From a virus, in the IMG/VR virus record IMGVR_UViG_3300028800_000062, positions 1 to 64,000 of that record: 64,000 nucleotides of DNA. One strand, 5' to 3'. The first letter of the stretch is position 1, and each line of letters starts with the position of its first letter. The position numbers and the translations under genes are program-made. Below, piece by piece: positions 49,343 to 62,336 of this stretch. The notes beneath the pieces were generated by a model. The model was given only the letters and a program-made list of their open reading frames with translations, had not been told where the DNA came from and ran no database searches.

Positions 49343-49372
49343 AAGCCGCACTCGAATGGGAGATCGGTGGAA

Positions 49373-51268
49373 ATGAGTTACAACTACCTACCTGGAATGC
49401 AGGTTATCACCAACGACGGCGGCTTGTACAAGAGAACAAACCCCGTTACAAAGAGTGTTCTGGTGTTCGGTACTTCCGGCCAGGGCATCGCCGACCAGGC
49501 TTATCAGGTTCTCGACCAGAACCAGGCAGCCTTGGAATACGGATTTGCCGGCACTTTGATCCGAGGCATGTCGGAGTCTGCGGCCGGCGGCAGCGACAAT
49601 CTGTACCTGTACCGTATCGGTACCGCGCCCGCCGTTCTTAAAGGTGTCGGAACCTCCACGGCCACAACCGCCAATCTGGGCCTGTCCCTGTCCTTCGGCG
49701 ACCGGGACGTGGACACCGCTACCAAGTACACCATGTATTATGCGGCCGGCATCCTCTATGTGTGGAACAACGGCCAGTTGGTGTATGCCAATGACACCGG
49801 CGTGCAGGTAGTCGATACCGGCGACGTCACGGTGACCATGTTGGACGTCACCATGCCTACCGGCGGCGCCGCCATCGGTACGGCTAAGACTTTGGCCGGT
49901 TCAGTGGCCATCGGTCAGGCGCCTACGGCGGCTGTAACGGATACGCATGACACGGCTCCCGTCTACACTGACGCCATCACAGGGCTGAACCTGACTACCC
50001 GTCAGTTGTATATCGCCCTCGAGAAAGCCATGGACATCATGGCTGGCTTCGTGGTGCAACAGGTCTATATTCCCAATACCGTGTTGGACGCGCCGAACGT
50101 GGCGTTCTACGTGTCTTCGGATCCTACCACCACGCAGCACAATCCGGCGACCAATCCCAATGCGCTCGACTGGCTCAAGACCACTACCGACGCGGTGGGT
50201 AACGAGACCTACCGGTGGGCCAGTGAACTGGTGGATTCCAACGGGCAGATTGTCACTGCGCACACCGCTTGGACTTCCGGCAGCGCCCGCCAGGCGGACG
50301 GCTTCTATGAGGTCAACTTCGGCTATCAGCTGGCCCGGTATTGTTCTCAGGCCAGCGAGACGCAGCAAGGTAACGGCGTATGCGTCGGCTTCATCGGCAT
50401 GAACGGACCGGCCGCGAGTTCCTCTGGTCTGCTGAACTTTTCCACAGTCAACGTGCGCTCCTGGCTGGGCGCCCTGCCGACTTACGATCCTAATAGCGGC
50501 ACAGTGCTCGCTTCTGGCAAAGGCGTACTGGGCAACCCGTATATGGCAGGCTGCGGTTCGGCGCAATTGAACCTGCTGTGCATCGACAAGGCCACCGGCC
50601 GCAGCAAGGGTTTCTTTGAGAATTTGGCTGAAGAGTATGACGGCGGCGCTTCGCTCGATGAGAACCAAATGCCCATCGATATCGGGGCCTACCTGGTGGT
50701 TTGCGGAGACTGGGCCAGCTTGACCAATTCTTACGGCTCAGGCTACGTGGGCAACATCGCCGGCCTGGTGTGCGGATTTGTAGCGCAGCTCGATGAGAAG
50801 GAAAGCACCACCAACAAGCCGGTGAAGGCGGTAGCTCAGCTGTACCATCCGACTCTGCCGCAACTAGACGCTGCTGCCGAAGTGGGCATCCATCTTCTGC
50901 GGTATCGCAGCACCGTGGACCTGCCCCGACTGGATCACGGGCAAACGGCGGCCACTTTGAATTCGGACTTCTGCGAAATCGTGCGGGTGCGGATCAAAGG
51001 TAAGGTCATCGTTGAGGTTTTCGACGCTGCAGATCCTTTCATTGGCAGCTCTTCGACCGATGGTATGCAACTGTTGAGTCTCCAAACGGCGCTCAACAGC
51101 CGCCTCAGCGTGTTACGCAAAGCGGGTTATATCGGCGCCAACTTCAGCATCTCCATCCAAGCCACGCAGGCACAGATGACTGCTGGACAATGCGACCTGT
51201 ATCTCACGTATTACAGCCCCGACGAAGTCAAGAAGATTACGGTTCACGTCGGCCTGTCACGGCAGTAA
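49373..51268 (+). CDS. Contractile tail sheath protein
   Basis: Start ATG 49373 (or GTG 49367). The N-terminus SYNYLPGMQVITNDGGLYKR and RTNPVTKSVLVFGTSGQG open like sheath proteins, and the C-terminus (IRVRIKGKVIVEVFDA) matches the sheath core. At about 632 aa it fits the size range. A sheath makes this a contractile-tail phage. A long hairpin follows its stop. Confidence 0.8.
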   Translation: MSYNYLPGMQVITNDGGLYKRTNPVTKSVLVFGTSGQGIADQAYQVLDQNQAALEYGFAGTLIRGMSESAAGGSDNLYLYRIGTAPAVLKGVGTSTATTANLGLSLSFGDRDVDTATKYTMYYAAGILYVWNNGQLVYANDTGVQVVDTGDVTVTMLDVTMPTGGAAIGTAKTLAGSVAIGQAPTAAVTDTHDTAPVYTDAITGLNLTTRQLYIALEKAMDIMAGFVVQQVYIPNTVLDAPNVAFYVSSDPTTTQHNPATNPNALDWLKTTTDAVGNETYRWASELVDSNGQIVTAHTAWTSGSARQADGFYEVNFGYQLARYCSQASETQQGNGVCVGFIGMNGPAASSSGLLNFSTVNVRSWLGALPTYDPNSGTVLASGKGVLGNPYMAGCGSAQLNLLCIDKATGRSKGFFENLAEEYDGGASLDENQMPIDIGAYLVVCGDWASLTNSYGSGYVGNIAGLVCGFVAQLDEKESTTNKPVKAVAQLYHPTLPQLDAAAEVGIHLLRYRSTVDLPRLDHGQTAATLNSDFCEIVRVRIKGKVIVEVFDAADPFIGSSSTDGMQLLSLQTALNSRLSVLRKAGYIGANFSISIQATQAQMTAGQCDLYLTYYSPDEVKKITVHVGLSRQ

Positions 51269-51387: not shown

Positions 51388-52089
51388 ATGTCAACGACTC
51401 CAGGTCTAACGGATGCCATCGCGAACAGCACCAACAACACATTTTCCGGCAGCGACATCCGTGCATACATAGGCCCTGTCCCGTTCGGACAGATGCAGGC
51501 GATTTCTTATTCCATCAGCCGGGAAAAAGCTCCCGTCTATACCATGGGCAGCCCGGATCCTCGCAGCTTCTCGCGCAACAAGCGCGGTATCGCAGGCTCG
51601 CTGGTATGGATCCTGTTTGACCGGCACGCTCTGCTGGCTCTGGCCGCACAGCTTAGCGGTACCTTCCTCGCTAACCGCGATGACGTGAATCCGACATTCC
51701 TGTCGCCGATCGCGCCGAGCGGAGGTTATGTTTCGCCGCAGGTGTTCAATACCACGCTGGTGCGCAACGACGGTACTTTGCCGGCCGCAGTAGGCAGCGC
51801 CGCCGCCGCGCAACCCCTTCAGGATATGTCCCTGGCCGCTAACTTCAAAGTGGTGTCTGCACCCTGGTATTCGGATCAGATCCTGCCGTTTGATGTCACC
51901 ATGTCCGGCGTGAATGAGTATGGCGCCGCGATGGGGATGAAGATCTTCGGTGTCGAAATCCTGAATGAAGGCTACGGGGTGTCCGTGGATGACACGGTGA
52001 GTGAGATGCAGGCTACCTTCGTGGCCCGTTCCATCGAGCCGTGGCAGGCAGTGGCTACCAACCTGAACAGCTCATCCTGTCTGGTCTAA
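51388..52089 (+). CDS. Tail tube-like protein 1, 233 aa
   Basis: GGAGACTCAA precedes the ATG. Directly after the sheath, so the tail tube is expected here. The core FSGSDIRAYIGPVPFGQMQA, then REKAPVYTMG and NKRGIAGSLVWILF recurs in the next two genes. A virion tube monomer is the best call. Confidence 0.6.
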   Translation: MSTTPGLTDAIANSTNNTFSGSDIRAYIGPVPFGQMQAISYSISREKAPVYTMGSPDPRSFSRNKRGIAGSLVWILFDRHALLALAAQLSGTFLANRDDVNPTFLSPIAPSGGYVSPQVFNTTLVRNDGTLPAAVGSAAAAQPLQDMSLAANFKVVSAPWYSDQILPFDVTMSGVNEYGAAMGMKIFGVEILNEGYGVSVDDTVSEMQATFVARSIEPWQAVATNLNSSSCLV

Positions 52090-52116
52090 TCCTACCGGCT
52101 GGACTGAAAGGCGCGC

Positions 52117-53001
52117 ATGTCCTACACTAATCCGCCGGATCTGTTGACCGGGGGTTTGGGCGCCAGCGGCAATCCGTTAGACCCCGGCGGATCGCTGCCG
52201 GCTCCGTCTCAAATCCTCACCAACGGCCTGACGCCTCCATCTCCGACCCTCGAGGTCGGTCCCATGGAGAGCACCGGCCGGGACTTGAGTTCCAGCAGCA
52301 GCAGCCAGAGCCAATCTTCCGCACCGGCATCCGCCCCGTATTCCTCCTCTCCCTCGTCCGCCGACGCCGGTGTGCTGGGAGCCGCCCAGGCTCCCGCCTC
52401 CGGCACCAAACTCACCGACACCGCCATTGCCCAGATCGAGTCCGGCCAATATGTGTTCAGCGGCGCGGATATGAGGGCGTACCTGGAGCTGCCCGGCAAT
52501 AAGCTCCGGCAGCTGATCGAACTCACCACCGTTACGGTCTCCGTGCATCGCGAGAAGGCTCCCGTCAGGGCCTGTGGGTATATCGGAGCCAAAGGCTATG
52601 CCCGCGGCCGGCGGACGCTGGCCGGCACCATCATTCTCACGCAGTTCCAGGCCGACTTTATGCTGCGCTTTCTGGGGCAGACCAATGATAAGGATGAGAG
52701 CAAGGACACCCAGATCCTGAAAGTGGACCAGCTGCCGCCCTTCAATCTTTATCTCTATTTTGGCGACGAGTATGGCTGCCAGAGTTACCGGCACATCCTG
52801 GGCGTGGATATCGTCACGGATGGAACGGTGCATAGCGCACAGGATCTCTACAGCGAGCGGACTCTTTCTTATGTGGCCTCCGACTTTACGCCACTGCTCC
52901 CCATCAGCGCCGCCAGCACCGCGACGCCGACGGATCAGCGCCTGGCCGGAGCCGAGAAGACTCCCAAAGAAGCGGTGAATTCCACCATCACGTTCATTTG
53001 A
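52117..53001 (+). CDS. Tail tube-like protein 2, 294 aa
   Basis: After a Ser/Pro-rich linker (about residues 1-110) it repeats the core: FSGADMRAYLELPGNKLRQL, HREKAPVRACGYIG and GRRTLAGTIILTQF. The linker distinguishes it from tube protein 1. It may cap or end the tube. Confidence 0.55.
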   Translation: MSYTNPPDLLTGGLGASGNPLDPGGSLPAPSQILTNGLTPPSPTLEVGPMESTGRDLSSSSSSQSQSSAPASAPYSSSPSSADAGVLGAAQAPASGTKLTDTAIAQIESGQYVFSGADMRAYLELPGNKLRQLIELTTVTVSVHREKAPVRACGYIGAKGYARGRRTLAGTIILTQFQADFMLRFLGQTNDKDESKDTQILKVDQLPPFNLYLYFGDEYGCQSYRHILGVDIVTDGTVHSAQDLYSERTLSYVASDFTPLLPISAASTATPTDQRLAGAEKTPKEAVNSTITFI

Positions 53002-53007
53002 TTCCTA

Positions 53008-54297
53008 ATGCCCAACGCCTCGGTTAATGTCAACGTCATCTCCGCCAGCACAGGTCAACCGGTGCAATCCGCGATCTATGTCAACGGGAGCTACACCTCC
53101 AATCTTGGTGCAGCGTCGCTGGCGGTGCAGGTCCCACAAGGGCAGACGACCGAAGTCAAGGCAGTCCCGATTAACAGCGACGGCAGCAAGGATAACTCCC
53201 GCGCAGCTACGCGGATACTGTCGGACCAGGATTCTAATGCTACGATCACGGTTCCCGACAGCCTTCCCAGCCCGGCAACCCTGACGCTCGAGGCGCCGGC
53301 CAACAGTAGCGGCGTATCCGTTTCCCTGGCCGGGCCTCCGGATTCAAACGGTAATCCTATCTCCCAGCAAGGTACCACGGACGACAACGGGCAGTTGACC
53401 TTCGCGAATCTACCGGCGGGAGACTATACCTACTCCGCATCCCATCCTGCTTACCAGGACCTGTCCCAGCAACCGATCTCCCTGGCCGCCGGCCAAACTG
53501 CCACCGCGGGCATGCCGATGGTGGCCAAGACCAGCCCGCAGGCGATCGGCGGCAGTTTACCGGTCTCCGATAACGGCGCCAATGCTTCTTCGAACACCGC
53601 ACTGGCCGGCCTGGCCGACGCGCAGTCGCAGGACGCGGCCTTCGACCAGGTCTATTCGAACACTTCCTGGGACACCTACTTTACCTCCGCCCAGTGCCGG
53701 GTCTATATAGGCGACTTGTTCATCGACGAGCTGCAGGCCATCCAGTATTCAGCGCCCAACAACATCATTCCCGTGCATGGATACGCCAGCCGCTTCGCCG
53801 ACGCCTGGGCCGACGGCAAGAGTTTGATTCAGGGCCAGCTGATTCTTAACTACGTCTCTGAGACGTACATGTACACGGTACTGGCCAACTACCGCAGGTT
53901 TCTGGTCTCGCAGTCGGTCCCGAGCGCGGCCGCGGATGCCACCAGTCAGAGTGCCCAGCAGCTCGGCAACGCCTTGAAAGCCCGTAAGTATCTGTTGGCC
54001 TCCAGTGAGGATGCCGATACTACCGCCATCGACAGCACCATTCAGACCCTGGTGCAGGACCCGGCCACGGTGCAGCAGCATAAACAGAATCAGCAGGGTC
54101 GTGGCCCGGGCTCCATTTATATCAACGCCATCTACCAACCCATCGCTTTTGACATCCGGGTGGAGATCGGGTCAGGGTCTTCGCGCACCTATAGGCAACT
54201 AGAAAAGTGCAGGCTGACCGGCAACGACCAGATCATCGACCAGTCCGGCAACGTGATCGCGGACGTCTACAGTTTCCTCGCCCGCCGGCTGCGTTAA
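53008..54297 (+). CDS. Tail tube-like protein 3 with N-terminal Ig-like domains, 429 aa
   Basis: The N-terminal 175 residues look like two carboxypeptidase-regulatory/CNA-B-type domains (VNVISASTGQPVQSAIYVNG, DNGQLTFANLPAGDYTYSA). The C-terminal half repeats the core: AQCRVYIGDLFIDELQAIQY, PVHGYASRFADAWADGKSL and GQLILNYVS. It may be a decorated tube or tail-tip variant. Confidence 0.55.
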   Translation: MPNASVNVNVISASTGQPVQSAIYVNGSYTSNLGAASLAVQVPQGQTTEVKAVPINSDGSKDNSRAATRILSDQDSNATITVPDSLPSPATLTLEAPANSSGVSVSLAGPPDSNGNPISQQGTTDDNGQLTFANLPAGDYTYSASHPAYQDLSQQPISLAAGQTATAGMPMVAKTSPQAIGGSLPVSDNGANASSNTALAGLADAQSQDAAFDQVYSNTSWDTYFTSAQCRVYIGDLFIDELQAIQYSAPNNIIPVHGYASRFADAWADGKSLIQGQLILNYVSETYMYTVLANYRRFLVSQSVPSAAADATSQSAQQLGNALKARKYLLASSEDADTTAIDSTIQTLVQDPATVQQHKQNQQGRGPGSIYINAIYQPIAFDIRVEIGSGSSRTYRQLEKCRLTGNDQIIDQSGNVIADVYSFLARRLR

Positions 54298-55311: not shown

Positions 55312-55725
55312 ATGTCCACTGAAGGTCAAGAACCGTTCGATCCCATGAAAATACTGGCCGATATTCCCAACGCGCCTACCAAAGCGCATATCGACTCCTG
55401 GAAGGCACAGGTACCAAACGGCATCATCCGGGTATTCCCCGCCTCGGGAAAACGGGTGTTCTTCTTACGCGGCATCACCGGACTGGAGATGCGCAAGATG
55501 CAGGAGAAGATCCTACCCGGCGCCCCTAATCCGGAACAGGAGTTCCAACTGCTGGCGCTCGAGGCCGCCTGTGTGTGGACCAACCTCACCGCGGACCATA
55601 AGCTCACCGCGGAGTATCTGCGCACCGCGACCGCCGGCCTGCCTTTCACGCTGTGGGCCATTGTGGAGTCGCTGTCGGACTTCATTCCGCCGCAACAGCT
55701 GTATGAGATGACCTTCGATCTGTAA
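55312..55725 (+). CDS. Putative tail assembly chaperone, 137 aa
   Basis: AAAGGAG precedes the ATG. Helical protein (ITGLEMRKMQEKILPGAPNP) in the position of a tail assembly chaperone, between tube genes and the giant protein. A second frame follows at 55743. No slippery site is seen, so a frameshift fusion is not supported. Confidence 0.55.
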   Translation: MSTEGQEPFDPMKILADIPNAPTKAHIDSWKAQVPNGIIRVFPASGKRVFFLRGITGLEMRKMQEKILPGAPNPEQEFQLLALEAACVWTNLTADHKLTAEYLRTATAGLPFTLWAIVESLSDFIPPQQLYEMTFDL

Positions 55726-55742
55726 GTTCGCCGCGGCGCATC

Positions 55743-56324
55743 ATGCGTACTCCAGTTCAAGTCGGCACCTGGCCTGTATTGGGTCTGGATGGGAATGGCA
55801 AGCCCGTTCCCGGTCCTTCCATGGTCGTGGCCTGGCGCCGGCTGAGCTGGAAAGAGTACGACTACTTCCGCGTCCTGCAGGAAGATCCCAAGATACTCTA
55901 CGCGGAGGTTTACGAGAAGTGCCTGGTACGGGGACCTTCCTTGGAAAAGGCGCCCGCCGGCATCGTATTCCATATTGGCAAGCAGGAGTTAGAGACTTGC
56001 CCTTTCTCAGGCCGGTTTGACAGTATTTCCAAAGAGCTTGAAAAGGCCCGCACGCAGGTTCAGGGAAGCTGGCTGCTGACGGCGCAGGCTCTGATTGCCT
56101 GCACGCTGCACTATTCCCTGGACGAAGTAGCCACTTGGCCGGCCGACCTGTTTTTCCAGCGCGTAGCCCTGGCCGAACAATTAGCTGGGAAGCCTCTTGA
56201 TCCGGCTGACCCCAAGAACCCTCCGCAGGCGCCTAGCCGGCGGAAACGAGGACCTTCGAATCCCGCCACTACTCCCCGGGCTCCCCAGTCTGGGGATAAC
56301 CAACAATTTACCTTCACACGGTAA
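55743..56324 (+). CDS. Putative second tail assembly chaperone, 193 aa
   Basis: Alpha/beta then helical (SMVVAWRRLSWKEYDYFRVL), with a basic Pro-rich C-terminus (PPQAPSRRKRGPSNPA). It follows the first chaperone by 17 bases in the -1 frame, as in paired G/GT-type genes, but has its own ATG. Confidence 0.5.
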   Translation: MRTPVQVGTWPVLGLDGNGKPVPGPSMVVAWRRLSWKEYDYFRVLQEDPKILYAEVYEKCLVRGPSLEKAPAGIVFHIGKQELETCPFSGRFDSISKELEKARTQVQGSWLLTAQALIACTLHYSLDEVATWPADLFFQRVALAEQLAGKPLDPADPKNPPQAPSRRKRGPSNPATTPRAPQSGDNQQFTFTR

Positions 56325-56339
56325 TAGGAGAAACAACGA

Positions 56340-56894
56340 ATGAAGACATGCAAAGTACTTTTGAGCGGGATGATCGGTCTGTTATTGTTTGTTTGCGCGC
56401 TAAGTGCGCAGGTACGCCCGGGAGCTAGTATGCCCTACGGCTTCATCGGCAACTGGGCGCCGCCCGCCAGCTATGGAGTGTTACTCTCGCCGCGCATCAC
56501 GGTAGTGCAGGCAAATTGGCCGGCCGGCATCCTTACTGGGGTGTCCGCCTATCCGCAGTTTGCGTCCACCGTAGGCCAGCAGATTGGTGCCTCGTTCTTC
56601 CCGTGGGGCACATATATGTGTCCGGCCGGACTCACCAGCGGGGCGAACGGATGCGGTTATTTGGGCAATCCGTATGATCCCACAGGTCAAAGCAGTGGCA
56701 AGTACGGCAAGCCTGTAATTGTGGCCGCGCAAGTAACAGCCGCGGACAACTGGCAGCAAACGATTTCGAATCCTTTGGTGGCCGTCGCGCCTCCGTCGAA
56801 TGCCGTACCTTCTACCGCTGCGTTGTTAAGCCAAGCGGTAGCCGCCCTGCAGCAAGCGATTACGCTGCTGAATAAGGTGGCCGCCCAACAGTAG
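56340..56894 (+). CDS. Exported hypothetical protein with Sec-type leader, 184 aa
   Basis: AATAGGAGAAACAACGA lies upstream. The leader is MKTCKVLLSGMIGLLLF then VCALSAQ. The mature part is Gly/Pro/Trp-rich, probably extracytoplasmic. It lies beside lysis-like genes. Function unknown. Confidence 0.55.
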   Translation: MKTCKVLLSGMIGLLLFVCALSAQVRPGASMPYGFIGNWAPPASYGVLLSPRITVVQANWPAGILTGVSAYPQFASTVGQQIGASFFPWGTYMCPAGLTSGANGCGYLGNPYDPTGQSSGKYGKPVIVAAQVTAADNWQQTISNPLVAVAPPSNAVPSTAALLSQAVAALQQAITLLNKVAAQQ

Positions 56895-56900
56895 GTCTGT

Positions 56901-57128
56901 ATGAACGGACTACTCCGTTTTCTGTCGAACAACTGGCCAGTGCTGAGTTTGTTTGCGCTGGCCTTTGTAGTTACCCTGCCGAAAGATCCACCTGCCTCGC
57001 TGCGACAGACGCCGCGGTGGTTCTACAGCTGGATACGAGAGGGCCTTATGACTTTCGTATCCTTCCGCACTCCGTCCAGTGCGGCGAAAGAAACTTCCCC
57101 AAAAGTAACAGGAGAACCTCAAATATGA
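56901..57128 (+). CDS. Single-pass membrane protein, possible holin, 75 aa
   Basis: One hydrophobic segment (WPVLSLFALAFVVTLPKDP) near residue 12-30, then a Trp-rich and polar tail. Small size, one helix and the coupled coiled-coil gene fit a holin/spanin-like set, but this is by layout only. Confidence 0.45.
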   Translation: MNGLLRFLSNNWPVLSLFALAFVVTLPKDPPASLRQTPRWFYSWIREGLMTFVSFRTPSSAAKETSPKVTGEPQI

Positions 57129-57364
57129 CGCCAGCCCCCAGTTTAGCCGATGCTCTTGCGCAGGTCGAAACCATGCAAGCTGCACTGTCCAACGCAGATG
57201 GTGCTTTGGATCAGGCCAACCAGAAACTAGCGGCAGCCCAATCTGCCCAACAAACCGCAGCGTCGGCCGACACGGATGCTATCAATTCCGCCAACAGCGC
57301 TATCGACGTGGCCATTGACGTTTTGACTGCCACCAAGCGACCGGTCCCGACGCCCGCTCAGTAA
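57125..57364 (+). CDS. Small coiled-coil protein, 79 aa
   Basis: ATGA overlap with the previous gene. Residues about 8-65 are Ala/Gln/Asp-rich heptads (QVETMQAALSNADGALDQAN), a strong coiled-coil prediction. No leader or lipobox, so a spanin call is not supported. Confidence 0.55.
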   Translation: MTPAPSLADALAQVETMQAALSNADGALDQANQKLAAAQSAQQTAASADTDAINSANSAIDVAIDVLTATKRPVPTPAQ

Positions 57365-57374
57365 CTGAACCCAG

Positions 57375-60300
57375 GTGCATCAATTCCCCAGTCCCGACAA
57401 GATCCATTTCTTCGATGTCGAGACTGGGGGTTTGCCCGAACATCGTGCGTTCAATTTCTCCCTTCCAGAGTTTCAGAAGTGGTCCGCCCTCAAAGGCGAC
57501 GCGTATTACAAACACCCCTACGCCACCTTCCATGCCAACAGTCCGCTCCTGCAGTTATACGCTACAGGCTTGCCGCACTTTGATCCCGCCAAAGAAGACA
57601 GACTCCAGCATTTAACCCAAGGCACCGCTCCACATTCCAGTCTGATCCGCTTGCCGGATAAACCCTGGACTGTTGAGAACGGCGATAAGGTTCCGCTGCT
57701 GATCAGCGACTGGGCCCGCGACAACGGCCTGGTGAAGGCTTCGCAAAGCGCCCAGCGCAGCGAAGAGGAAACCCTGCGTCTCTTCTTCGAGGATCTGGAA
57801 GCCAAGTTGGCTCTTGGAGAGCCGGTCAACTTAGGTGGCTGGAACGTTGGTTACGATCTAAGTGCGATCGAGCGCGCCACGCGCCGGTACGCTTCGCTAG
57901 AACCCTACCAGGGTTGGCTGGGTCGCCAGATCTCCGCCGGCCAGGTCCGTGTGGTAGAGGGTTTTGATGTATTCGGCGACACCATTCTCAAATATGCTGA
58001 GCACAACGCCGAGTTCGCCAAAAGCAACTTGCGCATGTTCCCTTCCGGAAAGGTCGCCAGCAATCTGGAAGAGTTGCGTAAGGTCCCAGGATGGAAACTG
58101 GGAAACATCATTGATGCAATTGGCGGCTCGGAAGCTTTTCATATCAGTGCGGAAGCTGCCAAGTTCCATGGCGCCTTCTTCGATACTCAGATTACAGCGT
58201 CGGCCTACACCCGCTTGTGGGAGGCGCAGGCATCCGTTCGCGAGATTCAGCCTGGTGAGGATTTCGCCGCGGCGTTCCGCCAGGCCTTTACCGAGGCCGG
58301 CCTACACCCGGCTTCCGTCTCTTCGGAAGACTGGATGTCGCGCATCTTCCAGCGTTCCGGTTGGCAGCGAGAGTTCCAGCGGGCATCTAAGGAGGGAGCG
58401 CGCGATGCCGGCTTAGCTTTTGAAGCGGTCCGGTCTCCCAGTAAGGTTCTGATTGGTGCGGCGGTCTTGGGCGGTATGGCGATCGCCACCAACCTGGCGT
58501 TTGGCAAACGCAAGGACCGCCAGACTCAGATCACAGGCCTTGACGACCTGGGTTTGGCTGCTGAACAACGGCATGCGTTGACCCCCTTCGGTTCCGGCTG
58601 GCAGGGACTGGACGATCCTTCTCCGGTCAATCTGAGCACCCTGGCAATAGCCGGAGGCACCTACGGTGCCTTCCGCTACTACACCCGCAACTATCCGCGG
58701 TCCGCCGTCAAGGTCTTTAGCGCGGCGGAGCGCCGCTTCCCGCGGCAGACTCTGAATTACTTCGGCTTCTCCCAGTTTGCGTCTAGTTTTCTGCCCACAA
58801 AACTGGACGTAGAGGCCGCACAGCTAGTCAATAACGGCAGTCTCACCGCATTAGGAGAACACTTCCAGAGACTGCTCGGCGCCGATCTGAATCTCGCGCA
58901 ATTGGCCACGGAAGGTCTGCATTTCGAACGCACCGGAAAGTCTGCGTACATGCACCTGGCCGGCACTGATCGCAGTGTCCGGTTCCTGGGCTACGATCCG
59001 GCGACTCAGAAAAGCGGTAGCCGTTGGGCAGGTGCTTCGGCCCGCTGGAAAGCTCCGATAAACGAACCGGATCGCTATCTTCCCAACGTAGTAGCAGGCG
59101 ACACCTGGGCAGCCCGTTGGAAGTCTTCCTGGAAACAACACGTCCTCAGCCAGACCCCTATCAATCCCAAGTACGGCGTCGAAGCCGAGGGACTCCGTTT
59201 CCAACCCGTCTTTGCGGAACAAGAAGGCCATCTTCTGGCGAACCTGCACCAGAAGGTAGGCATCACGGCGCTCGAACTGGCCGAACAACCGCAGAAGCTG
59301 TTTGCGCGCATCGGACTGGGTCTCAAGAATAACTCATGGAATTCCGCCGGAGGTCTGGTAGGGAAGTTGCTGCTCAAGCGCGCCCTACCGATCGCCGCCG
59401 GCCTGGGTGCTTTGGATTATGCCGACTACCTGACCGGCCACCGGCTTTCCGCCGGCGTCCTGGGAATCGGACCCAAGGCTAATGTAGCCCGGGCTGAACT
59501 CACCGATCGTGTCCCTGGAGCCCGGCGCACAACAGACTGGTATCAGCGTCATATCCCCGGATCCCAGTGGGGTCCGCTGGCACTCCCGCTGACAGGCATG
59601 GTCACCGGCGAGCTGGTCGAGATGGGCTACGAGGCCCTGACCGGCATCAAGCTGGCGGGCAAGGCCAGTAAGTTCGGACGAAAAGCCGGCCTGCTGGCCA
59701 TGCTGCCTTTCATCCCTGGCATGCTGGGCAGCCGCAAGAGCGCGCGGGAGCTGCGCGACATCTACTCAGGCGAGCAACCGGTTCCGGTCCGCAGCGGCAG
59801 GTGGTGGTGGCTCAACCAGACTCCCTGGGGAGGCGGCCGCATTACAGGCTATCGGCCGCACTGGTATGCCCGGATGAAGAGTCGCCCGGAGCGCGTGGCA
59901 CTGTACGGCTCGGAGAAGGAATACTGGAGGCATCATCCTGTCCTGCACCCTCTGAACTGGCTGAAGAACCCTTATCAGCTAGAGGAAGCCACCTATCAAG
60001 ACCGGCCGTACCCGATTACCTCGCCGGCCTTCTCCAATATTCCGCTCATCGGTCCGGTACTAGCTGCGACTCTGGGGCGCCTGGTCAAACCGCCCAAACG
60101 CATGCATGAGTCGGAATGGAACGGGGACGACTACACTCTATTCAGTCCGCGTGTGGAACCCAGAGGGCCCGCCGGCCTTGCGCCCGCACATCCGCGGGAA
60201 GAGTTCGGTTTGAGCGATGTGGTCAACCGGCAGACCGAACAAGCTGCTGAGTTCACCGGCCTATCCGGCTTCCTGGCCAAGACCGTCCTCAACAAGGCCC

Positions 60301-62336
60301 GAAACAACACCGGCTTTGGCCAGACGGTCTACTTCGAAGGCAGTCGGCAGTTGACCAGCTGGTCACGCAAGTACTATGACGAGCAGGTAGGCGCCGGCAT
60401 GGGCCCGGACGTAGGCCTGGACAGCACTGCAGAATACTCGGAGCCCTTCCGCAGGTTTATCCAACGGGACCTGAAAACCCTGCAGGCAAACGAGATTCGC
60501 AACCAGATGCCGCACTGGCTGCCGGGCGACGATTACATGACGGACTTCCGCACCGGGGATCCGTATACGAAGGTGGATAGCGGCGCTTCCCGCCTGCCAG
60601 GCCCAGGTTACGAGGCTCTGCATCCGGAACTGAAGGGTGTTCCCTTCGAACAGTATCCGGATCTCGAACGCTACAAGATTCTCTCCGATGTAGCACCCTG
60701 GAGCAAGGAGTGGTTCATCTACAACACCAAGTTGAATGCAGCCACCATGCAGGATCCGGAGAGGCGCATCGCCTATGAACAGGTCCGCGACCGCGCCCAG
60801 GCAATCAAGGATTCATCCGAAGAGTTCCAGCATCGGCGCTTCTCAGCTCCCGTCGAACGCCTGACAGGGGTGGTCAAGCGCGCCACGCCGGCGGGTATCG
60901 AGATGGAGGACGGCCGCCACGTCCAACTAAGCGCCTTGGGCATGCGCATGTCAGACCTCTCTTCCCTGGCCCTTGGCGAGAAGAATAACCTGACCCGGCA
61001 GCAGGCGGCCGCGGAAGCCGAGCAGAGACAACAGCGTCTCCTCGAACGACTGTCTGCACTGAATGGACAGAGCATTGAGATGGTGGTTCCTCAAGGCACC
61101 GGGGAACACACCCTGCGCAGCCGCGCGGTGGTCCTGGTAGACGGGCATAACCTGAACCGGGAACTGATCAAAGCCGGACTGGCTCGCGAGGATCCCAACC
61201 TGGCCGGCGCGGAATATCAGGAGATGAGCGGCCCGCTGGGAAAAACCCTGGGGCGACTGGGAGAGGCGGCCTCTTTTATGGGAGACCAGGCGGCCATCAA
61301 CCCGATGCGCTGGACCTGGGGTCATGAGCAGAACAAGTTCTGGGGTAGTCGCGAACCCCTTGAAAAGTATACTTACAACGAACTGTACGGCGCCCGCATG
61401 CAGCATTGGGAGACGCCTTTGAAGAGTTTCGCCAAGCCCTGGCTGAGGTCCCTGTCGCACAAGTTGACCAATAAGGTCGTGGCTCCCCAGCAAGTGCAGG
61501 AACGACGGGACTTTGATATGCTTACCGACGTCCTAGAATACCTGCGCGCCACTACCCGCGGATATACTAACAAGAAGAGCAGGACAGCTATCGGAGCTGA
61601 TGTACTGGCGGACCCCGCCTATCTCCGATCCACACTTTCCGGGCGGGATAAGTACTACTTTCCAGAGTTCCTGCGGGAGACCCGGGACGAGGAACGCAGT
61701 AAGATCCTCGAGGCCGTGCCGGAAGATTTCGCACGCATCCTGCAAGGACAGTGGGTCAAGCAGGATATCGAAGTAGCCCGCGCCGCACATCAGCCGGTGC
61801 CTGAGAAAGTGACCGAAGGCGGTCGCCTACTAACCATGGATGATCTGCAGGCCTATCAAAAGGCCGAGAAGAGTCACGAAACCAAGTTGGACTACGGAAA
61901 CTGGCTGCGTTCGCGCGAAATCGCCGGCTTCTTCTCCCGGAAGAACGTCCGGTTGCCGGAGGATCCGGATTCCCCCGTGTACGCCGAGAACATTGATTAC
62001 GAGGATGTCAAAGCCAAGATCATTCAGGAAGAAGGCCTAGACTACCACGATTTCAATATCTTCGACGACCGCGCGGCGACACTGTGGCGCAAACCTTACC
62101 TGGACGGCGCCGTACGGGAACTGACTGAGGGGAACAACAAATCCGTGGAAGACCTACGCCAGGCTGTGGAGAATATGATGCTGGCCGGCGGATCTAAGGA
62201 GTCGGAAGTGCGGATCACGTCCCTCAGTTCCCGCAAGCAGCGCCAGAACCTGAAAATACGAGTGGAAGAACAACCGGATGAAGACATCCTGCGGGATGTG
62301 CGTCGGAATCCGGAGGCTTACCTGAATCAGAACTAG
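57375..62336 (+). CDS. Giant protein with DEDDh exonuclease domain and SNase-like domain, 1653 aa
   Basis: The N-terminal 285 residues hold a complete DnaQ-type exonuclease site: FFDVETGG (D14, E16), NVGYDLSAI (D161), and HGAFFD (H265, D270). Hydrophobic stretches follow near 357-376, 420-435, 668-684 and 771-785. Residues about 1155-1275 resemble a staphylococcal nuclease-type fold: TGVVKRATPAGIEMEDG, AVVLVDGHNLNRELIKAGLA. The C-terminal 350 residues are charged and helical. The gene lies after the chaperones, where the tape measure protein is expected. Length fits, but it lacks long coiled coils. An ejected nuclease-bearing tail or internal virion protein is my inference. The start codon could be GTG or ATG nearby; the visible first Met precedes the catalytic motif by 13 residues. 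Confidence 0.6.
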   Translation: MHQFPSPDKIHFFDVETGGLPEHRAFNFSLPEFQKWSALKGDAYYKHPYATFHANSPLLQLYATGLPHFDPAKEDRLQHLTQGTAPHSSLIRLPDKPWTVENGDKVPLLISDWARDNGLVKASQSAQRSEEETLRLFFEDLEAKLALGEPVNLGGWNVGYDLSAIERATRRYASLEPYQGWLGRQISAGQVRVVEGFDVFGDTILKYAEHNAEFAKSNLRMFPSGKVASNLEELRKVPGWKLGNIIDAIGGSEAFHISAEAAKFHGAFFDTQITASAYTRLWEAQASVREIQPGEDFAAAFRQAFTEAGLHPASVSSEDWMSRIFQRSGWQREFQRASKEGARDAGLAFEAVRSPSKVLIGAAVLGGMAIATNLAFGKRKDRQTQITGLDDLGLAAEQRHALTPFGSGWQGLDDPSPVNLSTLAIAGGTYGAFRYYTRNYPRSAVKVFSAAERRFPRQTLNYFGFSQFASSFLPTKLDVEAAQLVNNGSLTALGEHFQRLLGADLNLAQLATEGLHFERTGKSAYMHLAGTDRSVRFLGYDPATQKSGSRWAGASARWKAPINEPDRYLPNVVAGDTWAARWKSSWKQHVLSQTPINPKYGVEAEGLRFQPVFAEQEGHLLANLHQKVGITALELAEQPQKLFARIGLGLKNNSWNSAGGLVGKLLLKRALPIAAGLGALDYADYLTGHRLSAGVLGIGPKANVARAELTDRVPGARRTTDWYQRHIPGSQWGPLALPLTGMVTGELVEMGYEALTGIKLAGKASKFGRKAGLLAMLPFIPGMLGSRKSARELRDIYSGEQPVPVRSGRWWWLNQTPWGGGRITGYRPHWYARMKSRPERVALYGSEKEYWRHHPVLHPLNWLKNPYQLEEATYQDRPYPITSPAFSNIPLIGPVLAATLGRLVKPPKRMHESEWNGDDYTLFSPRVEPRGPAGLAPAHPREEFGLSDVVNRQTEQAAEFTGLSGFLAKTVLNKARNNTGFGQTVYFEGSRQLTSWSRKYYDEQVGAGMGPDVGLDSTAEYSEPFRRFIQRDLKTLQANEIRNQMPHWLPGDDYMTDFRTGDPYTKVDSGASRLPGPGYEALHPELKGVPFEQYPDLERYKILSDVAPWSKEWFIYNTKLNAATMQDPERRIAYEQVRDRAQAIKDSSEEFQHRRFSAPVERLTGVVKRATPAGIEMEDGRHVQLSALGMRMSDLSSLALGEKNNLTRQQAAAEAEQRQQRLLERLSALNGQSIEMVVPQGTGEHTLRSRAVVLVDGHNLNRELIKAGLAREDPNLAGAEYQEMSGPLGKTLGRLGEAASFMGDQAAINPMRWTWGHEQNKFWGSREPLEKYTYNELYGARMQHWETPLKSFAKPWLRSLSHKLTNKVVAPQQVQERRDFDMLTDVLEYLRATTRGYTNKKSRTAIGADVLADPAYLRSTLSGRDKYYFPEFLRETRDEERSKILEAVPEDFARILQGQWVKQDIEVARAAHQPVPEKVTEGGRLLTMDDLQAYQKAEKSHETKLDYGNWLRSREIAGFFSRKNVRLPEDPDSPVYAENIDYEDVKAKIIQEEGLDYHDFNIFDDRAATLWRKPYLDGAVRELTEGNNKSVEDLRQAVENMMLAGGSKESEVRITSLSSRKQRQNLKIRVEEQPDEDILRDVRRNPEAYLNQN

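Follow-up and report, generated by a model that had tools for sequence, protein, structure and literature searches.

A DEDDh exonuclease motif set at the N-terminus of a gp145-type tail virion protein in a phage of the 0305phi8-36 lineage

To our knowledge, no proofreading-type exonuclease is known as part of a phage tail. A sequence-only reading of a 146,742-base virus record, of which bases 1-64000 were analysed (the window), placed such an enzyme at the N-terminus of a giant protein encoded in the tail region, and thereby raised the questions of whether the domain is real, what kind of protein carries it and where it might act. The 1653-aa open reading frame is present with its GTG start; its parts and neighbours are listed in Table 1.

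Table 1. Coordinates of the giant gene, its parts and the surrounding tail module, in positions of the virus record
Feature	Position	Strand	Remark
Tail sheath	49367..51268	+	phrog_16991 match, 7.6e-39; marks a myovirus tail module
Structural genes of the tail module	51388-54297		
Two chaperone-position genes	55312-55725 and 55743-56324 (span 55312..56324)	+	Similar to KLEB27-3 gp029 and ME3 gp034
Two small genes between the chaperone-like genes and the giant gene	56340-56894, 57017-57364		
Fusion protein, 1653 aa: predicted DEDDh domain, TM helix, TDFGSGW-type repeat, gp145-type core	57375..62336	+	GTG start
Predicted DEDDh exonuclease domain, residues 1-290	57375..58244	+	
Motif I, D14-V-E16	57414..57422	+	Invariant in the four-member and nine-sequence alignments
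Motif II aspartate, D161 (GWNVGYD)	57855..57857	+	Invariant in the fused-clade alignment
Motif III, H265xAxxD270	58167..58184	+	The H, A and D are unchanged across nine divergent sequences
Predicted transmembrane helix, residues 358-376 (VLIGAAVLGGMAIATNLAF)	58446..58502	+	Hydropathy
Single TDFGSGW-type repeat copy (here TPFGSGW)	58494..58613	+	E 1.8e-20
gp145-type virion core, residues ~416-1653	58620..62333	+	Homology
Degenerate SNase-like region in the core, residues 1150-1275	60822..61199	+	PF00565, 14.4 bits, E 0.005
Likely tape measure, 1725-aa gene	66729-71906		Immediately precedes the hub gene
Likely hub, SLT-containing, 1795 aa	71920-77307		

The five catalytic positions proposed for the N-terminus, D14, E16, D161, H265 and D270, are all found there, in the strings FFDVETGG (D14 and E16), GGWNVGYDL (D161) and KFHGAFFD (H265 and D270), and motif III has the canonical HxAxxD form with H265, A267 and D270. 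All five are invariant in the alignment of the four members of what is termed here the fused clade, i.e. the proteins of the window, L002, L013 (with its near-copy L014) and L015, in which domain identity is 27-32%, the closest pair excepted. A DEDDh motif expression applied to shuffled ORFs gave 2 matches in 746 ORFs with 20 shuffles each (~1/7,000); the rarity in shuffles, the invariant residues and the profile match lead us to reject a chance motif. Residues 1-290 are judged to be under purifying selection (dN ~0.18 and a dS of ~1.8, close to saturation, between the window and L002). As yardstick we used a DnaQ/RNase T profile of 70 sequences from E. coli and viruses. The profile-profile score against it is 36.7, and none of 200 column shuffles exceeds 18.3; motifs I-III align in order, and hhalign probabilities range from 59 to 86%.

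Searches of Pfam, PHROGs and PDB sequences yielded no significant match for the window protein, nor did a PADLOC scan. The profile search of the PDB brought up a single DEDDh enzyme, RNase T, with its motifs in the right register and at a non-significant E of 0.75. AlphaFold models from alignments of two and four sequences (pLDDT 46 and 48) have an unusable fold, and their Foldseek search, without a meaningful match, is uninformative because the models are poor. The module aligned by hhalign with ME3 gp011 or the MTATph1 domain alone gives no significant result with so few sequences; a genome-contig scan found no relatives of the N-terminal domain, and a PF00929 search of Acidobacteria MAGs supplied no comparison sequences. 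Motif set and profile together confirm a complete DEDDh site and make the N-terminus a probable member of the DEDDh exonuclease superfamily, with predicted fold and activity.

The remainder of the protein differs in several respects from its first description. Only residues 358-376, among several hydrophobic segments noted earlier, qualify as a transmembrane helix by hydropathy. The second, SNase-like region is real though weak (PF00565 at 61104-61187), and its catalytic residues are gone: for the catalytic Arg, Asp and Glu of staphylococcal nuclease (RLaGIDAPE, YGR), the window sequence reads HVQLSALGMRMSD. An active SNase in the window protein was rejected on this inspection and on the score of only 14.4 bits. 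The stretch belongs to the conserved gp145-type core. A 1548-aa gp145-like protein of another genome, G009 (L200), has an intact SNase in mid-protein (DAPE, YGR) and no N-terminal DEDDh domain.

By homology, the residues from ~416 onward are a gp145-type virion protein of the 0305phi8-36 lineage. ME3 gp035 is annotated as homologous to a 0305phi8-36 virion structural protein, which, counting accessions back from the hub, would be gp145; the core homologues KLEB27-3 gp031 and gp033 are annotated as structural proteins. Presence of gp145-type proteins in virions is documented for relatives, by annotation and in PMC2147016. In KLEB27-3 the gp145-type gene is in two parts with a small ORF between them (gp031-gp033, L005:9136-16289), possibly an intron or an inserted gene. 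The gene had been placed right after the tail chaperones: it does lie in the tail region downstream of them, with two small genes intervening. Chaperones, gp145-type gene, tape measure and hub follow one another in the window genome, small extra genes aside, and the order in 0305phi8-36 is 145-146-147 (PMC2147016). The suggested tape-measure role is not supported: the core is gp145-like, the 1725-aa gene directly preceding the SLT hub is the better candidate, and these two genes fill the positions of 146 and 147, so that the 1653-aa protein was rejected as tape measure.

The tail-module comparisons show a myovirus related to 0305phi8-36 (Bacillus), ME3 (Acinetobacter), KLEB27-3 (Bacillus) and MTATph1 (Moorella). 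Its host is probably an acidobacterium, the sole ground being core fragments in Acidobacteria MAGs. Such MAG contigs from different acidobacterial genomes (L049-L055) contain an isolated piece of the gp145 core, corresponding to window residues ~982-1130, with the rest of the gene absent; several of them share another conserved 1 kb upstream, and one has two copies. Starts resembling Sec signal peptides occur on tail-region proteins of the window (56340-56894 and 62339 onward) and of G000 (65313-66722), and a 469-aa tail-region protein with a Sec-like start has a GDSL-like motif. In L002 a dockerin-like protein immediately precedes the giant gene.

The fused clade has an additional, partial member in L218. 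L016 is without the N-terminal module and has probably lost it, since it is nested within the fused clade in the tree. In L061 the core is more distant, and the module fused to it has diverged (DIES, HNAPFE, HIAVQD). The module consists of the DEDDh domain, one membrane helix and a repeat of the form FSGKDDxYNTIEGLxHGGxAxxxRxxxTDFGSGWxGL, and in relatives, too, the domain is followed by a hydrophobic segment and then by the repeat. The lineage search recovered stand-alone DEDDh proteins in ME3 (gp011), G012, G006 and G008, then in G005, G010 and G016, and the PADLOC DEDDh model matches the G006 protein (3.7e-5). In an alignment of nine modules invariance is limited to the initial Met, the D and E of motif I and the H, A and D of motif III; motif II was misplaced in this alignment, and statements on it are a reading of each sequence. 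So read, it is N..FE, not N..FD, in most stand-alone relatives, which makes their catalytic activity uncertain, while the G008 protein has all five residues intact. The stand-alone DEDDh domain is often paired with an intact SNase in the same polypeptide. One stand-alone protein (L207:5101-7782) has DEDDh-like motifs at its N-terminus, a Cas4/RecE-like exonuclease at its C-terminus and two copies of the repeat.

With the window clade left out of its construction, a repeat profile still recovers the window protein, at E 1.1e-7 among 1828 ORFs. The repeat is present in 20 of 38 lineage records, and its copies are confined to one frame per genome with the sole exception of G002, which encodes a fused protein and an 802-aa stand-alone protein with three copies. 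The latter (L199 / L216) has no DEDDh domain; HEEIH (metallopeptidase-like) and GRHRA (ParB-like) motifs were recognised by eye. A DNA-pattern scan of IMG/VR returned 24 contigs, nearly all true members (L215 looks like a chance match). DEDDh motifs are present at the N-terminus in many of them and an SNase in some; one has a weak match to DnaJ, and another has weak matches of kinase type. The gp145 core is also encoded in 10 of 17 repeat-bearing records checked, the other 7 being fragments of 22-29 kb. Where both can be placed, stand-alone genes precede the gp145 core by ~23-42 kb and share its strand; in ME3 and L207 they are found between endolysin and terminase genes. Many lineage members have no visible module, so that it appears dispensable; these absences are weak, because most of the records are metagenomic and possibly fragments. 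The repeat consensus had no match among isolate phage records; for the nuclease part, ME3 gp011 and MTATph1 CDS27 are relatives from cultured phages. The string TDFGSG is absent from the literature searched, which leaves out most subscription journals and preprints, and within that literature the repeat is previously undescribed.

Sequence comparison establishes the DEDDh motif set, its conservation, its fusion to a virion core and its separate existence elsewhere in the lineage. Our preferred reading, to which we give about an even chance, is that a nuclease module, kept by most module-bearing relatives as a stand-alone gene, was acquired at the N-terminus of a gp145-type tail virion protein, and that the product is a virion-delivered, polyvalent-like protein with nucleolytic activity. 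The fusion protein would ride in the virion and enter the envelope together with the DNA; its helix would anchor it at the inner membrane, where the exonuclease, 3'-5' by precedent of the DEDDh family, would break down nucleic acid of the host or of rivals at the point of entry. Overall it would act like an injected polyvalent phage protein whose activity is nucleolytic. That the nuclease travels in the particle and enters with the DNA is suggested by its being fused to a virion protein in one clade and, as a stand-alone gene, lying among late head genes in other genomes; the membrane helix and the frequent SNase partner suggest that it acts on nucleic acid where the DNA enters. The initial proposal, that the protein is ejected along with the DNA and attacks DNA of the host or of competitors, is plausible, and gains support from the stand-alone DEDDh+SNase relatives and the virion-protein fusion.

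Stand-alone copies adjoin terminase and head-completion genes, as might be expected if the exonuclease acted on the phage's own DNA, trimming or resecting the genome ends once it has entered or at about the time of packaging, for instance so that terminal repeats are exposed and the genome can circularise. SNase is a non-specific endonuclease, however, and its frequent presence in the same polypeptide would endanger the phage genome; furthermore, the module is missing from many relatives that must process ends as well. We regard action on the phage's own DNA as unlikely. An equally small probability is assigned to RNA or short signalling oligonucleotides as the target, the domain being an anti-defence effector delivered at entry. 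DEDDh enzymes of the RNase T and Orn types act on such substrates, and RNase T did surface in the PDB profile search, if not significantly, while the Cas4/RecE-like domain of L207 hints at varied nucleic acid targets; the SNase partner, on the other hand, belongs to a family that prefers DNA or RNA polymers. Slightly less probable again is a mainly structural or assembly-related domain that keeps the DEDDh fold for binding, with little or no catalysis. The change of D to E in motif II of many stand-alone relatives and the degenerate state of the neighbouring SNase-like region fit this explanation, but the five residues are intact in the window clade and G008 although the remainder has diverged to ~30% identity or less. 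A large protein located after the chaperones could be the tape measure, but this identity is very improbable for the 1653-aa protein given its gp145-type core and a gene order that matches 145-146-147 of 0305phi8-36.

The fusion in the window clade, together with the separate genes for the same domain in relatives, marked by the repeat and often paired with a second nuclease, suggests that particles of these phages contain nucleases. More tentatively, and in our view rather doubtful, phages of the 0305phi8-36 lineage may share a class of virion-delivered, membrane-anchored nucleases in which the new repeat is a general cargo signal. It would mark or process cargo and bring effectors into the particle or the cell, normally from one gene per genome near the terminase; joining of the module to a tail protein would have taken place in the window clade. 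If delivered, such proteins would form a new class of entry-time effectors, a possible reason why resident plasmids, rival phages or host DNA are lost. More cargo proteins could be sought through the shared repeat, the virion-protein fusion opens delivery to direct test, and the lineage has a cultured representative, Moorella phage MTATph1, in which a tail gene encodes a DEDDh domain. This gene, CDS27 (L003:15681-19610), occupies the tape-measure position and, annotated as hypothetical, encodes a full canonical DEDDh domain above the Pfam cut-off.

Compared with DnaQ/RNase T-type DEDDh exonucleases, the window domain agrees in the succession of motifs I-III and in their canonical residues, but is very divergent, with a long insert between motifs I and II, lies below detection by Pfam RNase_T and stands outside a polymerase or RNA-processing context. 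With the gp145-type proteins ME3 gp035, KLEB27-3 gp031/gp033 and MTATph1 CDS26 the window protein shares a homologous core (~570-1650) and the place in the gene order ahead of tape measure and hub; the ME3, KLEB27-3 and MTATph1 proteins lack a DEDDh domain, whereas the window protein has an extra N-terminal module of 415 residues. Polyvalent proteins are large multidomain phage proteins of late genes, fused to virion domains and proposed to be injected (PMC5512222), a text in which DEDD, SNase, tape measure and the TDFG motif are nowhere mentioned. The general concept of an injected multi-effector protein would be the same; several effector domains per polypeptide are found in the stand-alone relatives (DEDDh+SNase or DEDDh+Cas4-like), and the window protein has one intact predicted enzymatic domain plus the virion core. 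SNase domains occur also in hub-position frames of ME3, MTATph1 and G012. A parallel within this phage lineage is the BtI1 hub, with its N-terminal staphylococcal nuclease (PMC2147016): there, too, a nuclease domain is fused to a tail structural protein, but the nuclease fold and the tail protein are different ones.
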